This document shows positions 24,579 to 36,681 of a stretch of DNA of 64,000 nt, piece after piece. The stretch's first letter is position 1. Each line of letters starts with the position of its first letter. Made by a program: the position numbers and the translations under genes. This DNA is from Cyanobacteriota bacterium (GTDB lineage Bacteria > Cyanobacteriota > Cyanobacteriia > CACIAM-69d), in assembly GCA_022402445.1 (NCBI GenBank), contig JAKRSF010000006.1:274540-338539 (forward strand), read 5' to 3'. The notes under the pieces were generated by a model. The model saw only the letters and a list, made by a program, of their open reading frames with translations, was not told where the DNA came from and did no database searches.

Positions 24579-25670
24579 CTAGCCCATGCGATCGCCCAGG
24601 CAGATATTCAAACCCCGAGCCGTTTTGACCAGGGTATCCTCCGGCGAAATGGTGCGGTAGGTCGAAACAATCTCCTCGATCGGCACACTCACCACCTGTC
24701 GGTTTTGCCAGGTCACCACGCGATCGAACTGGCCCGACACCGCCAGATCCACCGCCGCCACCCCAAAGGCCGATGCCAACACGCGATCGAGCGGCGACGG
24801 AATGCCCCCCCGCTGCACATGGCCCAGCACCGTCACGCGGGTTTCCGCCCCCGTGCGCTTGCCGATCTCGTCCGCCAGATGTTGGCCGATGCCCCCCAGG
24901 CGACATTCCCCAAACTGCTGCTGGTGCGTCACCACCTCGCCGCCCACCGTGCAGACCGCCTCCGAGATCACCGCGATCGAATAGTTCGAGCCGCTGGCCT
25001 GCCGCTTCCGCACCTGCTCGCACACCACCTCGATGTCGTAGGGAATTTCCGGCAGCAGGATAATGTGAGCGCCGCCCGCAATGCCCGAATTCAGGGCAAT
25101 ATGGCCCGCATCGCGCCCCATCACCTCCAGGATCATCACCCGGTTATGGCTCGCCGCCGTGAAGTGCAGCCGGTCGATCGCCTCCGTGGCAATATTCACC
25201 GCCGTATCAAAGCCAATGGATCGCTCCGTGGAGCCCACATCGTTATCGATGGTTTTGGGGATGCCTACGAAATTCATGCCCCCCAGTTTCGCCAGCTTGT
25301 GCAAAATCGCCAAACTGCCGTCGCCGCCAATGCCGATGAGGGCATCGAGGCCCAGCAGGTGGTAGCCCGCTGCGATATCCGCTGAACGGTCTTTGGTCGT
25401 GCCGTCCGCCATGGGAAAAGCGAAGGGGTTGCCGCGATTGGTGGTGCCGAGGATGGTGCCCCCTTGGATCAGCAGGCGATCGACCCCGGCGGGGGTGAGG
25501 GAGACCACTTCGATCGGGCGGCTCATGAGGCCCTGGGTGGCATGGCCGATGCCGACGACTTCCCAGCCGTAGGTGCCAACGGCGTGGTGGACGACGGCGC
25601 GAATGGCGGCGTTGAGGCCCGCGCAGTCGCCGCCGCTGGTCAAGATGCCGATGCGCTTGGTTTCTCCCAT
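24579..25670 (-). CDS. pfkA: 6-phosphofructokinase PfkA
   Basis: PFK phosphorylates fructose 6-phosphate in glycolysis. The 363-residue enzyme begins MGETKRIGILTSGGDCAGLNAAIRAV. It carries GIGGDGSLAIL (Gly, not Asp, at the position that favours ATP over pyrophosphate), the catalytic block VGIPKTIDNDVGST, and GFDTAVNIATEAIDRLH. EVMGRDAGHIA and LGHVQRGGIPSPLDRVLA are also present. The frame extends 37 codons upstream, but 25670 is the conserved start. It is the next gene after the ZorAB-like operon, with a gap of about 150 bp, and ends near a palindromic hairpin. Confidence 0.95.
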   Translation of the reverse strand: MGETKRIGILTSGGDCAGLNAAIRAVVHHAVGTYGWEVVGIGHATQGLMSRPIEVVSLTPAGVDRLLIQGGTILGTTNRGNPFAFPMADGTTKDRSADIAAGYHLLGLDALIGIGGDGSLAILHKLAKLGGMNFVGIPKTIDNDVGSTERSIGFDTAVNIATEAIDRLHFTAASHNRVMILEVMGRDAGHIALNSGIAGGAHIILLPEIPYDIEVVCEQVRKRQASGSNYSIAVISEAVCTVGGEVVTHQQQFGECRLGGIGQHLADEIGKRTGAETRVTVLGHVQRGGIPSPLDRVLASAFGVAAVDLAVSGQFDRVVTWQNRQVVSVPIEEIVSTYRTISPEDTLVKTARGLNICLGDRMG

Positions 25671-25820
25671 AAGCTCATGCCCCGGTGAACGGTGGATTGC
25701 GGAATGTGGTGCCGTTGGGGGTCGAGCCCCGATGCCCGACTGGGCGCGCTGGCTAGGACGCACTGCGGGTGGCATCGCCAATGGTAGGCGGCATTTTGGG
25801 CCGGGTAAAGTTGGGATCGA

Positions 25821-26570
25821 TCAATTTTGCTGATCTTCACTAAGTTTCAAGGTTAGGGCTGGGGGCGGGGCGGGGGCGATCGCGGTGCCCTGGCCGGGTG
25901 CTTGAAAGGGTTTGGTGAAGTCGGTGCGCTGGAATTGGAAGCGGAAAACGACTTTGCGATCGCGGGGATCATCGCGATCGCGGTTGGCATCGAGTTCGCC
26001 CCGGCCGGCGGTGAGGAGGGCGGCGATGAATTGATCTTGATGGGGGAAGGGGGGTGCGGTGGCGATGCGGTTGGCGACGGCCTGGGCGCGGCGTAGGCTG
26101 AGGTCAAGGTTGGCGCGATCGTCACCGCTGCTGCTGGTGTGGCCTTCGATGATGATGCGGGCGAGGCGCGGGGCGATGTCGGGGTTGCCAAAGGCCAGAT
26201 CGCTGTAGAGGGGGACGAATTCGTTCAAAAACGCTTGGCCGCTGGGGGTGAGTTCGGCGCTGCCCACGTCGAAGAGGATGCGATCGCGGATGCTGATGTC
26301 GCCGGTGGCGGGATCGATGGCGATCGCGCTGTCGGGGCCGTCGTGGCCGAGGCGATCGCCCAGGGTTTGCAGGACTAGGAGGGGGAGGCGATCGAGGGCG
26401 TCCTGGTAGCTGCGCAGTTGGGCCAGGACCGTGAGGAAGAGCAGGGCAAAAAAGAGCAGTAGACCCGCCATCAGGTCGCCGATGGAGAGCAGGATGCTGC
26501 CGTCGAGGGAGTCCGGTTCGTGGGGGAGATCCGCGTGGGGATCGGTCTGGGGATCGAGGTCGGGATCCAT
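25821..26570 (-). CDS. ZorB/MotB-like OmpA-domain stator protein
   Basis: This 249-residue protein has one N-terminal membrane helix (SIGDLMAGLLLFFALLFLTVLAQL, ~30-53). The Asp at its start is positioned like the proton-carrying Asp of MotB/ZorB. A periplasmic OmpA-like peptidoglycan-binding domain follows (~85-235) with RDRILFDVGSAELTPSG, RIIIEGHTSSSGDDRANLDLSLRRAQAV and RKVVFRFQF. It lies 11 bp after the ZorA-like gene, which is a strong operon signal. Together they should form a MotAB-type ion-driven complex anchored to the wall. ZorC, D, E, F or G genes are not nearby, so Zorya defence is not established. Confidence 0.85.
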   Translation of the reverse strand: MDPDLDPQTDPHADLPHEPDSLDGSILLSIGDLMAGLLLFFALLFLTVLAQLRSYQDALDRLPLLVLQTLGDRLGHDGPDSAIAIDPATGDISIRDRILFDVGSAELTPSGQAFLNEFVPLYSDLAFGNPDIAPRLARIIIEGHTSSSGDDRANLDLSLRRAQAVANRIATAPPFPHQDQFIAALLTAGRGELDANRDRDDPRDRKVVFRFQFQRTDFTKPFQAPGQGTAIAPAPPPALTLKLSEDQQN

Positions 26571-26581
26571 GGGCGGGGGGG

Positions 26582-27871
26582 TTAGGGATCGGGGGGGCGA
26601 TCGCGCAGGAGGCTCAAAAGTTCTTGGCGGTGCCGCTGGAGGAGGTCGCGCAGGAGTTGATTTTCTTCGCTGAGGAAAGTTTCGATCGCGGCGCGGTACT
26701 GATCTTGAAAGGCGCTGATCTCGCGGAGGATGGCGCGGCGCTGCTGATCCCCGGCGTCGGCCACCTGATCGAGGCTGTGGCGGAGGGCGTCGGCGGCCCG
26801 GTCCATGGTGCGGGCGGCTTCGTCGCCGATCTGGGCGATCGCGTCCCCCTGCTGGGCGAGGGTGGTGCCGGTGGCGGTGAGGAGGTGATTGAGCTGCGTA
26901 AAGGTGTCCTGAAGCCGCTGCTGCTGCTGGCGATCGAGGGTTTCGAGGCGCTCTAGGGTGGTGGCCTGGAAGGTGGCGATCGCGTCGTTCGAGCGGCCTA
27001 GCTGCTGATCCAAGTTGGCAAGGCGATCGCCCAACTGCTGCAAAAGGGCGGTGAGGTCCGCTTCGCGATCGCGGTGTTGACGCAGCAAATCTAGGGCGGG
27101 CTGGGCAAAGGCGCGGTCCAGTTCCGCCCCGAGGGTTTGAGCTAGGGCGATCGCGTCTAGGGGCGGCAGGGCAGATGAATTTTCAGTTGGTCCTTCAGAA
27201 GGAATTTCGGATGGGCTGAGGCGATCGCGGATTTGGCCCAACAGTTGCGGACTGGTTACCAAAATCGCCACCCGGTCCAGCCGTTGCCGCAGGCGATCGC
27301 GCCAATTTCGTCGCAGGCGATCGCCCAGGGCCAACACCACAATCGCGCCGCTGGCACTGCCCAACCCCCACAGCGACGTCAGAAACGCCGTTCTCATGCC
27401 CGCCAACAGGGTGCCGCTGGCCCGCAACAGGTCGTCCGTCGCCGCGATCGCCCCCAAATCCAGCCCCTGGAGCCCCGCCGAAATGCCCGCAAACGTCCCC
27501 AACACCCCCAGGGCCGTCAGGAGCGTCGGCGCAGCGGCAGCGGGATTGGCAGGCACCGATCGCAGCAGCAGCGCCGGATAGGCCAGCAGGGGAACGAGAT
27601 CGCCCCGCAGCGCCACCGCCCAACCCGCCGCCGTTCCTTGACCGTCCAGGTGCGCCGCCAGCCAAGCCGCCTCCGTCGGAGTGACATCATCCCAGGGCAG
27701 CACAACCGTTGGGGACGCGATCACCACCAGCCCCTCCAACCGCCCAATTCGCTGCGGCAGCCCCCGATGGAGTGTTTGGTAATAGCGCCCCGTGACCGCC
27801 ACCTCCAGCGCCAGCACTAAAAACGCCACCAGGGCGATCGCGAGCCCAAAGGCCACCGTCAACCCCGTCAC
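26582..27871 (-). CDS. ZorA/MotA/TolQ/ExbB-like channel protein with long coiled-coil tail
   Basis: The 429-residue protein is read from the GTG at 27871, which overlaps the SGNH hydrolase stop as GTGA; an upstream GTG at 27922 would overlap by 55 bp. Three hydrophobic segments are seen at about 3-25, 112-134 and 154-178. The last two (PTLLTALGVLGTFAGISAGLQGL and GMRTAFLTSLWGLGSASGAIV) are the MotA/ExbB core in its ZorA form. Residues ~185-425 are Gln/Asp/Arg-rich heptad-like helix, matching the long intracellular tail of ZorA. That tail distinguishes it from TolQ or ExbB. It is predicted to pair with the OmpA-domain protein next door. Confidence 0.83.
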   Translation of the reverse strand: MTGLTVAFGLAIALVAFLVLALEVAVTGRYYQTLHRGLPQRIGRLEGLVVIASPTVVLPWDDVTPTEAAWLAAHLDGQGTAAGWAVALRGDLVPLLAYPALLLRSVPANPAAAAPTLLTALGVLGTFAGISAGLQGLDLGAIAATDDLLRASGTLLAGMRTAFLTSLWGLGSASGAIVVLALGDRLRRNWRDRLRQRLDRVAILVTSPQLLGQIRDRLSPSEIPSEGPTENSSALPPLDAIALAQTLGAELDRAFAQPALDLLRQHRDREADLTALLQQLGDRLANLDQQLGRSNDAIATFQATTLERLETLDRQQQQRLQDTFTQLNHLLTATGTTLAQQGDAIAQIGDEAARTMDRAADALRHSLDQVADAGDQQRRAILREISAFQDQYRAAIETFLSEENQLLRDLLQRHRQELLSLLRDRPPDP

Positions 27872-28644
27872 GGATTCATCCCTTGGCGCGCCTTCAAAAT
27901 CGGCACCAGCACCGCCGCCCACCGCTCGGCCATCCGGTCATGGGCGCGGCGATTGGGATGGAACCCATCCGGCAAATCCTCCCAGGCCACCGCGTCATAC
28001 AGCTCCACCAACGCGATCGCCCGCCCCGCCCCCATTTCCTGGGCCACCCAATCCCGCAACTCCTCGTTGTAGGCCCGCACCCACCGATCCAGCCGCGCCT
28101 CCGCGATCGGCGGCAGCGTCGCCACCAGCACCGTCCCCGTCGGACGCACCCGCCCAATTTCATTCACCAACGTCGCCAGCCGCCGCACCATCCGATCCAC
28201 CGCATAGTCCTGGGCGATGTCATTGGTGCCCGCCAGCAACAGCACCACCTCCGGCTCCGCCCGCCCGAGCCACCGGCGCACCTCCGTCCGCAGTTCGTCA
28301 ATGCGCCAGCCGCTGTGGCCCTCATGGGCGCGATCGCCCCCCAACTCCGCCACCGGTCCATTGCGCTGGGATCCCACATAGGTGATCCCGTGGCCCGCCT
28401 TCTCCAGCAACGATTTCAATGCCATGCGGTAGCCCCCCGGCACCCAATCCCCCTCCGTTAGCGAATCCCCCAGGGGCATGACACGAACGGCAGCCCGCGA
28501 TCGCCCAGGGATCGGCGGCGCGATCGCGGCATCCTGAATCAACTCCTCCCCAGAATCCACCGCAGGTTGAGTCCCCTGGCGTGGGGCAGGATTGGGATCC
28601 GGATCCGGCGTGGGTTGGGCCGCAAAGGGCGATCGCTTCACCAT
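27868..28644 (-). CDS. SGNH/GDSL hydrolase, first gene of the ZorAB-like operon
   Basis: This 258-residue protein carries the complete SGNH set: block I MPLGDSLTEGDW with the nucleophile Ser (~61), block III LLLAGTNDIAQD, and block V LPDGFHPNRRAHDRMAE with the Asp-x-x-His pair. The N-terminal ~50 residues are Pro/Asp-rich and disordered. No signal peptide is evident, so it may be cytoplasmic or tethered. The start at 28644 is preferred over 28692 because the extra residues are not family-like. It overlaps the ZorA-like gene by 4 bp. Substrate (acyl ester, lipid or glycan ester) is unknown. Confidence 0.83.
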   Translation of the reverse strand: MVKRSPFAAQPTPDPDPNPAPRQGTQPAVDSGEELIQDAAIAPPIPGRSRAAVRVMPLGDSLTEGDWVPGGYRMALKSLLEKAGHGITYVGSQRNGPVAELGGDRAHEGHSGWRIDELRTEVRRWLGRAEPEVVLLLAGTNDIAQDYAVDRMVRRLATLVNEIGRVRPTGTVLVATLPPIAEARLDRWVRAYNEELRDWVAQEMGAGRAIALVELYDAVAWEDLPDGFHPNRRAHDRMAERWAAVLVPILKARQGMNP

Positions 28645-28836: not shown

Positions 28837-29841
28837 CTATTGGATGACGGACCCTACATTGCGGGCATCCAAGAATTTTAGCTGGCGATAGAGCATCTCC
28901 ATCTGCGGAAGCGCCACCCCCCGCGCCGCCGCCATCCGCAGCGGAGCCCCCACGATCGCCTCCACCTCCAGGGGCCGTCGCCCATCAAAATCCAACTTCA
29001 TGCTGGTTTTATAGGGGGGCATGGTTTCCGTCAGGGCCATCAATTCCGCCAAAAACGCCGCCGTCAACTCCCGCCCACAGGCCGCCGCCCCCTGGGTCAC
29101 CTCCACCATCAGGGCATCAATGAGCGATCGCGCCGCCCCATCCGCCATCAGTTCATCCGTCGCCGCATCCAGCACCACCGACAGGCCATTGAACGGCACA
29201 TTCCAGGCCAGCTTGCGCCAACGGGCTAGCAACAAATCTTCACAAAGCTCAATTTCCAGATCCGCCGCCTCAAAATCCCGGGCGATCCGCCGCAGGCGTT
29301 CCGTAATTCCACGGGGGCCGTACCCTTTGCCATAGTCCCCGAGGATGATTTTGCCGTAGTCGATGTGGTGGATGAGACCGGGGGCGACCTTGGCGGCGCA
29401 CAGAAAACACACGCCCCCCACCACGCGATCGCGCCCGAGGACCGCCGCCGCCTGCGCCTCCACATCGAGGCCATTTTGCAGCATCAGGGCGATGCCCGTG
29501 GACCCCAGCAGAGGTGGCAGCAGGGTTTCCAGCAGATGATTTTGGGTGGTTTTGAGGGCGACGATCGCCACATCCACCGGCGGCATTTCGTCCACGCGAT
29601 CGTAGGCGGCCACGTCCGTCAGGGTCCACTCCCCCGTAGAATCACGGATGGTCAGGCCCCGCGATCGCAGCACCTCCCCATCGCGACGGGTCAGGAACGC
29701 GACGGAATGGCCCTTTCGCGCCAATCGCGCGCCATAGAGGCCCCCAAGGGCTCCAGTGCCCACCACCGCATAGCGCAGCCGTTCCCGCGTTAAGGTCACA
29801 ATTTTACGGATTGATGCAAGTTTTCTAGGATTTTCGCCCAT
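28837..29841 (-). CDS. Ketopantoate reductase family protein (PanE/ApbA-like)
   Basis: PanE reduces 2-dehydropantoate to pantoate with NADPH in pantothenate synthesis. The 334-residue protein has the Rossmann motif YAVVGTGALGGLYGARLA, VALKTTQNHLLETLLPPL, LMLQNGLDVE, and the C-terminal block WRKLAWNVPFNGLSVVL with the conserved Lys and Asn. Near the end is PPYKTSMKLDFDGRRPLEVEAIVG, the substrate-binding Ser/Lys/Glu region. The exact start is uncertain (29865, 29841, or a GTG closer to the Rossmann strand). The family includes paralogues of unknown substrate, so panE is not asserted. Confidence 0.85.
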   Translation of the reverse strand: MGENPRKLASIRKIVTLTRERLRYAVVGTGALGGLYGARLARKGHSVAFLTRRDGEVLRSRGLTIRDSTGEWTLTDVAAYDRVDEMPPVDVAIVALKTTQNHLLETLLPPLLGSTGIALMLQNGLDVEAQAAAVLGRDRVVGGVCFLCAAKVAPGLIHHIDYGKIILGDYGKGYGPRGITERLRRIARDFEAADLEIELCEDLLLARWRKLAWNVPFNGLSVVLDAATDELMADGAARSLIDALMVEVTQGAAACGRELTAAFLAELMALTETMPPYKTSMKLDFDGRRPLEVEAIVGAPLRMAAARGVALPQMEMLYRQLKFLDARNVGSVIQ

Positions 29842-29865
29842 TGCTGCCCCCCCACGGACCCGCAC

Positions 29866-30531: not shown

Positions 30532-33500
30532 ATGGCTCTTTCTTTCTCCACGGCTCCGATGATTTCAACGGCTTCCACTGCGATCGCGGTGATTGATCCT
30601 CGGGTGATGGATGCCCAGTGGTTACGCGACCAGGTGCAGCCGGGGACGGTGGCGGTGGTGCTGGAGCGCGATCGCGATGGCCTGACCCAGGTGGCGGAGT
30701 TGCTTGAGCGTTTTGGGGGAGCCACGTCGCTGCATGTGGTTGCCCATGGTCGTCCGGGGGCGCTGCGCTTGGGTGCTTCGACGGTGGATGGGCGCTCATG
30801 GTTCCGCTTCGGGGAGGTGTTGGGCCGTTGGCGCGATCGGTTGGGGCGATCGCCGGAGGTGGTGATCTATGGCTGCCGGGTGGCGGCAACGGATGCGGGT
30901 CAATCCTTCCTTCGGACGTTGGCGGCGCAATCCGGAAGTGTGGTGCGGGCGGCGACGTCTTTTGTGGGCCAGGTGGCTCGGGGTGGTTCCTGGTCGCTGG
31001 ATTTTGTGGCGGGTGCGGGCGATCGCGCTGCCTTGGCTCCGTTGGTGTTTGGGCCGGAGGCGCGATCGGCCTATGGGGGCATTTTTGCTGAATGCTTCCC
31101 CAACCAGTTCTATGCCGTCATGCGTCTTGATGACGACAACAGCAATGGCGGCATTGATGGTAGTGATCTGCAGAACGATCTTGTCACCATCAATCTATCT
31201 AATGGTGCAATCACGCGTGTCATTTCCAACAACAGTGGTTTAGGCTTTTCTACGAACAGCCTTGCCCGCCGTCCCGGCACTAATGATCTCTATTTCTTGT
31301 CAACTGCAACTGGCACCGCCGGAAACCTCTATAAATGGTCGCCGCCTGTCACTGCTGCGAACAACGGCGTAAGTCTGGTTGCCAATGCAACCGCTGTCGC
31401 CAATGGAATTCTTTCCATATCAGATATATCTAACGTTGGCCGTATGGCATTTGACTCTTATGGAAATCTTTTTATCAGTAGTGGCAACAAGATCATCATT
31501 GTAAATCCTGATACGGGTAGAGCAGTTTACGCCAAAGATCTGGCGGGAACAGGTGTAGGAAATATCAATCTCAATGCCGGTACTGGTGATCTTGCTTTCG
31601 ATCCCAATGTAGAAGCCGATCCGTCAGCGCGAAATCGACTCTATGTTGCTTTTCAGCAAGACGAAGACGGAGGTGGGTTCGACGATAATGATATCGGCAT
31701 ACTGGAAGTTAAGACTACGGGAGTCTCTCAGCTCTTAACAGAAACTCAGCAAAGTAACCCTGGTGGTCCTGGACCTAATATTGACCCTTTTACCATTGAA
31801 CGCAACGCGGAAGTTTCTCGAAATATGGCAGGTCTTGCCTTTGGGATAGATGGCAGACTCTACGCCTCCGTCAACAACAATCCTGACCGTAACCTTTACC
31901 CAATCAGCACTGCTGCAGCTGATTTTGGCACGTTGGGTACTCAAATCCAAAGCGCTTTTAGTGGCACTTCACCTTTCAATAGCACCATTGGCGACTTGGC
32001 AACACTGCCAGTGAAAACGCCAGAGGTTCAGTTAAAGGTCAGTAAAAGTGATGGTCTTGATGCTGCTGAGCCCGGTCAAGCAATCACCTACACCGTAACC
32101 ATAGAAAACCTGGCGACTCTCACCAACGGAAAACCGGGCTGTGACATCAAGGCTCCATTCCCTGTTTCCCTATCCGACACCTTTCCAGTAGATTTTCTTC
32201 CCGTTGAATGGAAAGCAGATGTTACGGGAGTCGGAACAGTTGATCCCATCGCAGATCAAGAGGGCAGCATTGATCTCCAGAATGTAAAATTGACCCTTAA
32301 TGCAGGGTCAAGCGTCACATTCACGATTAAGGGAAATATTTCCGCCACACCAACTACAACTGTCCTATCCAATACCTTTGAAGCCACTCTGCCTGATGGA
32401 ATCCTTGACCCTGACTCCACTACTACCGCCGAAAAGTTAGGTCCCCAGGTCTTTACATCTACGGATACGACGATTCTCAATCGCCCACCCGTTGCCCAAG
32501 GTAAAACCAATACAATTCCGCCGAGTGCTGCACCTCAGACTATTGTCTATCCCTCATTGGCCGCCATTGGTATCACTGGAAGCGATCCCGATACGGGACT
32601 TGCTAATCCTAATAATCTAGAGCGAGTTAGATTTGATTCTGTTCCTGCTTTTGGAAGCCTAGAGTACTCGCTCGATGGCGGAGCAAACTGGCTTCCAATC
32701 ACTCAAGGACTTACTCTTCTACTAGGGGCTGCACCTCAGATTCGCTACACGACACTGGGTGGTGATCTGCCAGATGGCCTAGGATTTAACTATCGATTAC
32801 TAGATAGTAGTGGCGCTGCGAATAATACGTCGGCTCCTGCGACCATCTCTTTCATAGATGGACAAAATCGACCTCCAGTTTCCCAATCATTCTCTACTGG
32901 CGCAGGCGACAACGTAACGGTTAATTTAACTGGTCAAATTCCAATTGATGATCCTGATGTAGGAGCGGCAGGAACCCTCGACTATGTTATTCAAAACCCG
33001 CCTAATCAAGGAACCTTATACCTGGACAACGACAACAATGATGTCTTTTCAGCAGGTGATACGGTTCTGACAGCCGGCAGCACATTTCCCGAGGCGGATG
33101 TTGATAAATTAAAGTATGATTCTCCGGCTGGTTTTACAGGGACGAGCTTTACCTATGTCGCCCGCGATCGCAGCGGTCAGCCCAACAATACTTCCCCCGT
33201 TGCAACGGTTACGATCGCTAGAATCCCTGCCAACCAAATCCCCGATGCGAATAGCGCTTCTTTCACAGCTGATCCTGCCAATCCAACGGCCCCAATCCTC
33301 ATTTCAGCCTTGTTCCCCGCAGCGCCTGCAACGGATGATGGAACAGTTGCGAGCTATAGGCTGACGAAGCTGCCGACGACAGGACAGCTACGGTTCGCGG
33401 ATGGAACCCTGGTCACAAACCTCAGCCAAGTCGCCAACCTCAGCGAGGCAGCTTTTCTAAGTTTGCAGTACATTCCGCCCGCTTCAGGCTTCGCTGGGGC

Positions 33501-36500
33501 AGACTTCTCCTACGTTGCTGTTGACAATCTTGGGGCCGAATCCGCACCCGCAACGGTCAGTTTCAACCCAGCGGCAAACCAGCCCCCATCTGCTTTTAAC
33601 TCTTCCGCCAACATCATTGCGGGCAGTGGCCCGATTCCCCTCGCGGGCGCAAGTGTTTCATCACCTTTAGGAGGAGATGATCCTGATGTGGGAGGTGGTC
33701 CGAATGACACCCTGGTTAACTTCGTCATCGATAAGCTCCCGGAAGGCGGGACGTTGACCCTCAATGGCAACCCTGTAGTTGTAGGGCAGCCTCTTCCTTT
33801 CGCGAATATTGGCAATTTGGTCTTTACCCCCAACGCGAGTGCAACGGACCTCGTTACAGAGTTTACCTACCGCGTCATCGACAACAGTGGTGCGAGCAAT
33901 GCGTCTTCGCTCCCGGCTAGGGTTGAACTGCGAATTTTTGGTAAGGCTCAGCTGACGCCGATCAGTGCCCCGACGCCAACGCCGCAAACGCCGGATGAGC
34001 CGCGCATTTCCGTGTTTGCTGTTCCCCTTCCCGGTCTCGAAGGCAGCCGCGACGGCGAAGTGCGCGACGGCGATCCGGCGTTCTTCTTCTTCCCCGGCAA
34101 CAAAATCAAGGATGGTAACGCCGCCGGTTTCCCCGGTCTTCAGGTGCCCTGCATCGATGCGGGCCAAACGGTGGTGCAGCGGTTCCGGATTCGCAACACC
34201 GGTACGGGCGTCCTGCGCCTCGGGGATGCCAACCTACCGGAGGGCTTCGTGCTGGCGGGGGACTACCAACGGACCCTAGGGGCGGGCGAAGAAACGTTTA
34301 TCCCGATCGCGTTCACCCCCACCCGAGCTGGCGTCGTCACCGGCATTTTTAGTCTGTTGACCAACAACACGGGGGATCCGGTCTTTAACTTCCCGATCGC
34401 GGCGGTGGTGTGCGACTTCCCGAACGTGCCGATTCCCGGTCTGCCGCCGGAGTTGAATGTCTTGACGCCGACGGTGGCCGATCGCGACCCGAGCTGCGCC
34501 CCACAGCCGATCCTGGCGGGATTCCTCCTTGCGCCGCCGGTCCAGCCCGATCGCCCGCCGCTGATCATTCCCCCCATCCCCGCCACGAGCCGCGCCATCT
34601 TTGCCCTCGGTGGCGAAGGGGAAATCGTCGGCACCGCTGAAAATGAATTGGTGGTCGGCTCGGACTTTGGCGATTTTGCCCGTGGTGAAGGGGGTGACGA
34701 TGAACTTCTGGGCAATGACGGCAACGACACCCTCTTTGGCGGCATCGGCAGCGATCGCGTCGGCGGCGGCACCGGCAACGACCAGCTCAACGGCAACGTT
34801 GGCGATGACGTCCTCTTTGGTGGCGACGGCAACGACGAACTCAACGGCGGCCAGGACAATGACTGGGTGCTCGGCGATCGCGGTCAGGACACCATCGAGG
34901 GCGACCTGGGCAACGACACCCTCATCGGCGGCGTCGGCAATGACGGCAACCTGGACGAACCCATCGAAGATCGCGACCTGATTTTTGGTAACGAAGGGGA
35001 TGACGTCATCCTCGCCAGCCAGGGCCGCGACACCGCCTTCGGGGGCCAGGGCAATGACATCCTCCACGCGGGCAAAGGGGACGATCTGGCCTTTGGCGAT
35101 CGCGGCAACGACACCCTCTTTGGCGAGCTGGGCGACGACACCCTCTTTGGCGGCACCGGCTTCTTTGGCGTCCTCGATCCCAACGGCGCGGACGTGCTCC
35201 TGGGCGGCGGCGGCAATGACCTGCTCTTTGGCAACGAAGGCAACGACACCCTCGTGGGCGGCATCGGTAACGATCGCGGCTTTGGGGGCCAGGACAACGA
35301 CATCCTCTTCGGCAACGAGGGCAACGACACCCTCCACGGCGATCGCGGCGACGACATCATCTTTGGCGGCGTCGGCCGCGCCGAAGAGCAGGGCAACGAC
35401 CCGGACGACGACCTGATCTACGGCGGGCGCGGCAACGACAGCATCAACGGCGGCCAGGGCAACGACATCATCTACGCGGGCGAAGACAACGACCTCGTGT
35501 TCGGCGGCAAGGATGACGATCTGATCCTGGGCGACAAGGGCAACGACACCCTCTCCGGCGACCTAGGGAACGACACGATCTACGGCGGCAACGGCAACCC
35601 CAACGATCCCGACCTCGACGGCGCGGACCTGCTCTTTGGTGGCGGCGGCAACGATGATGTCTTTGGCGATCGCGGCAACGACTCCCTCCTGGGGGGCTCC
35701 GGCAACGACACAATCCACGGCGGCAGCGGCGATGACTACGGCTGGGGCGACGACGGCGAGGATCTGCTCTTTGGCGATCGCGGCAACGACACCCTCTGCG
35801 GCAACGACGGCAACGACACCCTCTACGGCGGCAACCGCAACCCCGACACCGAAGACGACGGTGACGATCTGATCAACGGCGGCAACGGCGACGACCTGAT
35901 CTACGGCAACCGGGGCAACGATCTGCTCCTAGCGGGCGAGGGCAACGACACGGTCCACGGCGGCAACGGCAACGATCAAGTCTGGGGCAATGAAGGGAAT
36001 GACCTGCTCTTCGGCGATCGCGGCAGCGACACCCTCCAGGGCGGCGCAGGCAACGACACCCTCTACGGCGGCAACAACAACCCCAACCTCGACAACGACG
36101 GCGACGACCTGCTCGACGGCGCAGCGGGGGACGATCTGCTCCTGGGCAATCGCGGCAACGACACCCTGATCGGCGGTGAGGGCAACGACACCCTCTACGG
36201 TGGCCAGGATGACGACATCCTCTTCGCTAGTGTCGGCGATAACGTCCTCTCGGGCGATCGCGGCAACGACACCCTGATCGGCGGTGCGGGGAACGACACC
36301 CTCCTGGGGGGCTCCGGCAACGACACGATCGCGGCGGGCGGCGGCAACAATCTCCTGCGGGGCGGCCAGGGAGATGATTTCCTGATCGGCGGCACCGGTG
36401 ACGATATCGTCTCGGGCGACCTCGGCAACGACACCCTCTCCGGCGCGGCGGGGCGCGATCGCTTTGTCCTGGGCGATCGCGGCGACGGCAGCACCGACAC

Positions 36501-36681
36501 CCTCCTCGACTTTGAAGTGAGCCTCGACACGATCGAACTCCTCGGGGGGCTGCAATTTAGCGACCTCACCCTGCGGGAAGTGGACGGCGGCGGCGCAACG
36601 GAACTGCGCACCGGCGATCGCACCTTTGCCCTGCTGCGCTCCGTCACCCCCAGCCAACTGACCGCTGCCCAGTTCCTCTAG
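30532..36681 (+). CDS. Giant DUF4347 / DUF11 / RTX calcium-binding repeat protein
   Basis: This 2049-residue protein is probably exported by a type I system or placed at the cell surface. The order is as follows. Residues ~18-165 are DUF4347 ([30 protein letters not shown]). A beta-rich region with Asp-rich repeats covers ~190-490. A DUF11-like domain lies at ~495-645 ([14 protein letters not shown]). Cadherin/Ig-like units span ~660-1140. A choice-of-anchor-D-like domain lies at ~1190-1310 ([18 protein letters not shown]). More than twenty RTX nonapeptides ([24 protein letters not shown]) run from ~1375 to 1980. The tail ends in [22 protein letters not shown], typical of RTX C-termini. No ABC/MFP secretion genes lie in the window. 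The centre (31.1-33.1 kb) is markedly less GC-rich and lacks HIP1. Confidence 0.9.

Follow-up and report, generated by a model that had tools for sequence, protein, structure and literature searches.

Zorya is an antiviral system whose type I comprises ZorA, ZorB, ZorC and ZorD. According to the published model, ZorAB senses disturbance of the cell wall and conducts ions, with the cytoplasmic region of ZorA recruiting the effectors (PMC11890865). Within the cyanobacteria, most ZorAB loci form a C2-zorA-zorB-zorC operon, in which ZorC corresponds to PADLOC PDLC00618 and Pfam EH_Signature, and C2 is an unnamed protein of ~115 aa (e.g. L150:5576-5926 and L147:4588-4941). In most cyanobacterial ZorABC loci, and in several from gammaproteobacteria, the C2 gene precedes zorA or follows zorC; its product matches nothing of weight in Pfam, PADLOC or NCBIfam, and its AlphaFold model, with a pLDDT of 92.8, gave no match with E below 0.001 in a fold search against the PDB. 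This recurrent gene may be an unrecognised Zorya component. Among the papers searched, we found no work on stand-alone ZorAB, nor on a ZorC-docking tail. Here we describe a ZorAB pair from a cyanobacterium that probably represents such a stand-alone motor; the window, as we call it throughout, is the whole stretch of 64,000 nucleotides that was analysed.

Three minus-strand ORFs were confirmed, encoding an SGNH hydrolase, then ZorA, then ZorB (Table 1), and they are packed as the original prediction had described, with a GTGA overlap followed by a gap of 11 bp between zorA and zorB. The length of ZorA is counted from the GTG within the overlap with the SGNH stop codon; the frame is also open to a GTG further upstream, at 27922, which would give a longer protein. 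The block is flanked by panE (28837-29865) and pfkA (24579-25781), and a scan for promoters and terminators gave nothing above chance. In the five genomes of the same family that were compared for the insertion site, pfkA is present and the other tested window genes are not near it, so that no empty site can be defined. Elsewhere in the window, positions 30532-36681 encode a protein of 2049 aa that combines a DUF4347 domain with many calcium-binding RTX repeats and is probably a secreted surface protein.

Table 1. Features of the SGNH-zorA-zorB block, in window coordinates.
Feature	Position	Strand	Evidence
SGNH/GDSL hydrolase, CE3-type, 258 aa, no apparent signal peptide	27868..28644	-	Pfam PF13472 3.4e-18; PDB 2VPT 9e-27; acetyl esterases 5B5S/5B5L; N-terminal hydropathy
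ZorA, 429 aa: membrane part, strands between first two long helices, helical tail without C-terminal extension	26582..27871	-	PADLOC PDLC00597 1.5e-60; Foldseek best 8vvn/8qyd ZorAB; extension profile negative
ZorB, 249 aa: TM helix bearing the motor Asp, plus an OmpA-like domain for peptidoglycan binding	25821..26570	-	PADLOC PDLC00609 1.5e-57; alignment
GTGA overlap of SGNH stop and ZorA start, 4 bp	27868..27871	-	sequence
Codon of ZorB motor Asp32, invariant in 10 aligned ZorBs	26475..26477	-	alignment
Codon of ZorA Thr126, invariant; inferred pore-lining position	27494..27496	-	alignment
Codon of ZorA Ser166, invariant; inferred pore-lining position	27374..27376	-	alignment

Both sequence and fold mark the ZorAB pair as Zorya type I-like, and it has kept the residues of the motor and of peptidoglycan binding. 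Besides the matches to the PADLOC models ZorA1 and ZorB1, the closest PDB sequence to ZorA is 8vvn, a type I ZorAB of Shewanella, and ZorB matches Pfam OmpA at 3.5e-11; NCBIfam ZorA_2 matches ZorA at 2e-15, yet under its curated cut-off, and Pfam MotA_ExbB is sub-threshold (0.036). The AlphaFold model of ZorA consists of a membrane part with three long helices, mostly with pLDDT above 80, and a long helical tail of low confidence, and a Foldseek search with it ranked the ZorA structures on top, with ExbB and MotA far behind. Its strands agree in placement with the Zorya-specific beta strands described for ZorA (PMC12505986). ZorB has one TM segment, which carries the invariant D32, and in its OmpA-like domain H144, L157, R161, R205 and R210 match, by order and near-identical spacing in a sequence comparison, the His/Leu/Arg pattern that peptidoglycan binding reportedly requires (PMC11890865). 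The ZorA-like and MotB/OmpA-like motor pair with its motor Asp, as originally predicted, is thus borne out by the PADLOC matches, the predicted helices and D32.

None of the known effectors accompanies this motor. ZorC (EH_Signature) and C2 were searched for in the whole source genome and neither was found, and within the window, where the neighbours of the pair are pfkA, the SGNH gene and panE, there is no ZorD next to it and no adjacent ZorE, ZorF or ZorG. The ZorC of Zorya type I is therefore missing, as are, in the window, the adjacent ZorE and the ZorF plus ZorG of types II and III, and the earlier statement that no known Zorya effector lies alongside holds, for ZorC even genome-wide. In other genomes, 26 large co-directional neighbours of ZorABC loci (L147-L217) were compared with PADLOC, and of the 34 families matched, the 25 listed do not include ZorD. 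In Thalassolituus (L212), the large gene adjoining ZorC is DruH-like. At L103 and L105, two conserved genes (~450 and ~115 aa) come after a divergent ZorAB-like pair, and similar ZorB matches are seen in many genomes of 1.6-2.3 Mb from another class of the phylum.

The loss of ZorC goes together with the loss of part of the ZorA tail. When all loci were searched with a profile built on the C-terminal ~125 aa of the ZorC-linked ZorAs, this extension was found in 74 ZorC loci (search counts include duplicate genomes); it was missing at three ZorC loci, L164, L171 and L219, where zorA was not detectable. The window ZorA is negative, and so are the stand-alone loci, except for a Microcoleus-type group, in which the extension is present in all six genomes with zorA in view and a genome-wide search finds zorC elsewhere in eight out of eight. 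At these loci (L162, L163, L165, L166, L168, L170, L220 and L222) ZorAB lies beside a polyamine-type ABC transporter cluster, with zorC apart; L223 stops at a contig edge, and its genome does contain zorC. Counting ZorC in cis or in trans, the two traits are concordant in 70 of 70 rows on the tree, which exclude the duplicate set as well as the distant proteobacterial locus L218, whose extension match is weak and which has no ZorC. Each trait changes five times, with at least four changes forced by supported branches, and all four independent pairs agree in a sign test, the p of 0.125 being the minimum attainable at n=4, where 0.05 is unreachable. That ZorC, C2 and the distal tail are missing together suggests that ZorC is recruited through this segment, and that what is left of the motor functions without it. 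The matched occurrence of ZorC and the extension over at least four independent changes marks the ~125-aa segment as a probable ZorC-docking site, and bears on how the motor signals to its effectors.

The window pair is not the only one of its kind. In the ZorB tree it joins L157 and L160 (SH-aLRT 89), and then L146 and L221 (SH-aLRT 96), forming a clade of five members with no ZorC at any of these loci, and a FastTree tree agrees with this placement in a ZorC-less clade; the long branch (1.24) and odd composition of the window ZorB make its exact position less sure. The genomes of L160 and L175 do have zorC, each in a second ZorABC system (L202 and L148). The window pair has no close relative to compare it with; between close stand-alone pairs, Nei-Gojobori dN/dS is 0.17 for ZorA and 0.07 for ZorB between L157 and L160, 0.25 and 0.13 between L175 and L192, and 0.19-0.36 in a Tolypothrix-type group. 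These values lie within the range of ZorC-linked pairs, and the related stand-alone ZorAB pairs are under purifying selection, which suggests that the motor has some role even when the known effectors are missing.

The SGNH product aligns with PDB 2VPT, which we take to be a carbohydrate esterase family 3 (CE3) esterase, in its GDSLTEG, GTND and DGFH blocks (Ser, Gly, Asn, Asp-His), so the intact catalytic triad noticed before stands, and by sequence similarity the protein is a CE3-type enzyme. CE3-type enzymes deacetylate polysaccharides. Its nearest cyanobacterial homologues (41-49% identity) lie in unrelated gene contexts, and four of them have a hydrophobic, lipoprotein-like N-terminus that is absent from the window protein. 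Of the six genomes that hold the closest CE3 homologues, five (G026, G115, G161, G090 and G243) also carry ZorA, at unlinked loci; three share one family, so that kinship may explain the co-occurrence, and a glgA comparison does not single out f22, the family holding the closest ZorAB and SGNH relatives, as nearest kin.

So is this hydrolase the effector of a new ZorAB-linked system, as was originally proposed? We compared the neighbourhoods of ZorAB in the 34 of 386 phylum genomes with ZorA relatives, including the source genome, and at 78 named collection loci, two sets that partly overlap. A related SGNH gene was found beside ZorAB in none of about 110 other loci (some duplicated), nor in four further ones, where the search used a profile of the window SGNH family and could therefore miss an unrelated hydrolase. 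The SGNH-ZorA-ZorB triplet, the conservation of which had been singled out as the point to check, is thus not conserved, the four closest ZorABs stand alone beside genes other than SGNH, and we reject the SGNH protein as a conserved ZorAB effector. A lineage-specific defence or envelope module, in which the short ZorA tail recruits the esterase as its effector within the cytosol, would fit the same-strand 4-bp overlap, the missing signal peptide and the source genome lacking ZorC; given these neighbourhoods, and the action of CE3-type enzymes on polysaccharides, we regard it as quite improbable. The overlap does count against the esterase being a mere bystander, as it suggests translational coupling of SGNH and ZorA in the source genome, where the two may share a transcript. 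Nonetheless, the esterase is probably functionally independent of ZorAB and an incidental neighbour.

Somewhat less remote, though unlikely, is that the pair is still antiviral, with an effector recruited from another locus of the genome. The separate ZorAB and ZorC loci of the Microcoleus-type genomes do indicate that Zorya parts are separable, but there ZorA keeps its extension and ZorC is detectable, and the source genome shows neither. Only slightly less probable, and in our view doubtful as well, is a decaying Zorya remnant that no longer serves any function and is in the course of being lost. The pair lacks ZorC, C2 and the tail extension, the window ZorB sits on a long branch, and the stand-alone ZorA of G026 and G115 is truncated to 222-226 aa and has no ZorB, from which it follows that such pairs can decay. 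However, both window ORFs are intact and have kept their key residues, and the related stand-alone pairs show dN/dS values of 0.07-0.36. Least probable by far, to the point that we hardly consider it, is that the pair does housekeeping work as a homologue of TolQR, ExbBD or a flagellar stator. These share the 5:2 motor superfamily with ZorAB, which here is set among housekeeping genes (pfkA, panE). A close match to them, named beforehand as counting against a Zorya-like identity, was looked for, and the Zorya models (1e-57 to 1e-60) and folds, with ZorA structures ranked first, beat MotA, ExbB and TolQ, which rules this identity out. Furthermore, five other genes, located elsewhere in the source genome, score above the MotA_ExbB cut-off, and the pair has a minority presence, in three of 59 relatives and 34 of 386 genomes of the phylum.

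We therefore favour, as the probable reading, an effector-less stand-alone ZorAB motor of a Zorya type I-like system that has lost ZorC, C2 and the probable ZorC-docking tail segment of ~125 aa, with the esterase incidental. This is based on the family of the pair, its kept residues, the absence of ZorC and C2 from the genome, its ZorC-less clade, purifying selection in its relatives and the link between extension and ZorC. In such a motor, ZorA5ZorB2 would be anchored to peptidoglycan and conduct ions upon disturbance of the wall; lacking the segment on which ZorC presumably docks, it would act on the envelope mechanically or through the ion flux itself. More tentatively, ZorAB may have become a free-standing, effector-less motor repeatedly in cyanobacteria, shedding ZorC, C2 and the docking tail together, with selection maintaining it for a role in the envelope that lies outside nuclease-based defence, a generalisation that we consider possible rather than probable.

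With the CE3 acetyl esterases (PDB 2VPT, 5B5S) the window hydrolase shares the SGNH catalytic blocks and overall similarity; it differs in showing no signal peptide. The closest relatives of the motor, the stand-alone ZorABs of Geitlerinema, Baaleninema and Phormidium (L146, L221, L157 and L160), resemble it in a locus without ZorC and C2 and a ZorA without the extension, while lying beside spoIID-like and/or DUF3084 genes in three of four cases and beside no SGNH gene. Zorya type I has in common with the window pair the ZorA and ZorB families, the motor Asp, the conserved polar residues and the OmpA-like domain, whereas the window pair is without ZorC genome-wide, without ZorD in the window and without the distal segment of the ZorA tail, and any defence role of it is putative. 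Compared with the cyanobacterial C2-ZorA-ZorB-ZorC operons (PDLC00597, PDLC00609, PDLC00618), from which it differs by its lack of C2, ZorC and the ZorA extension, the window pair belongs to the same ZorA/ZorB subfamily and nests among them in the tree.
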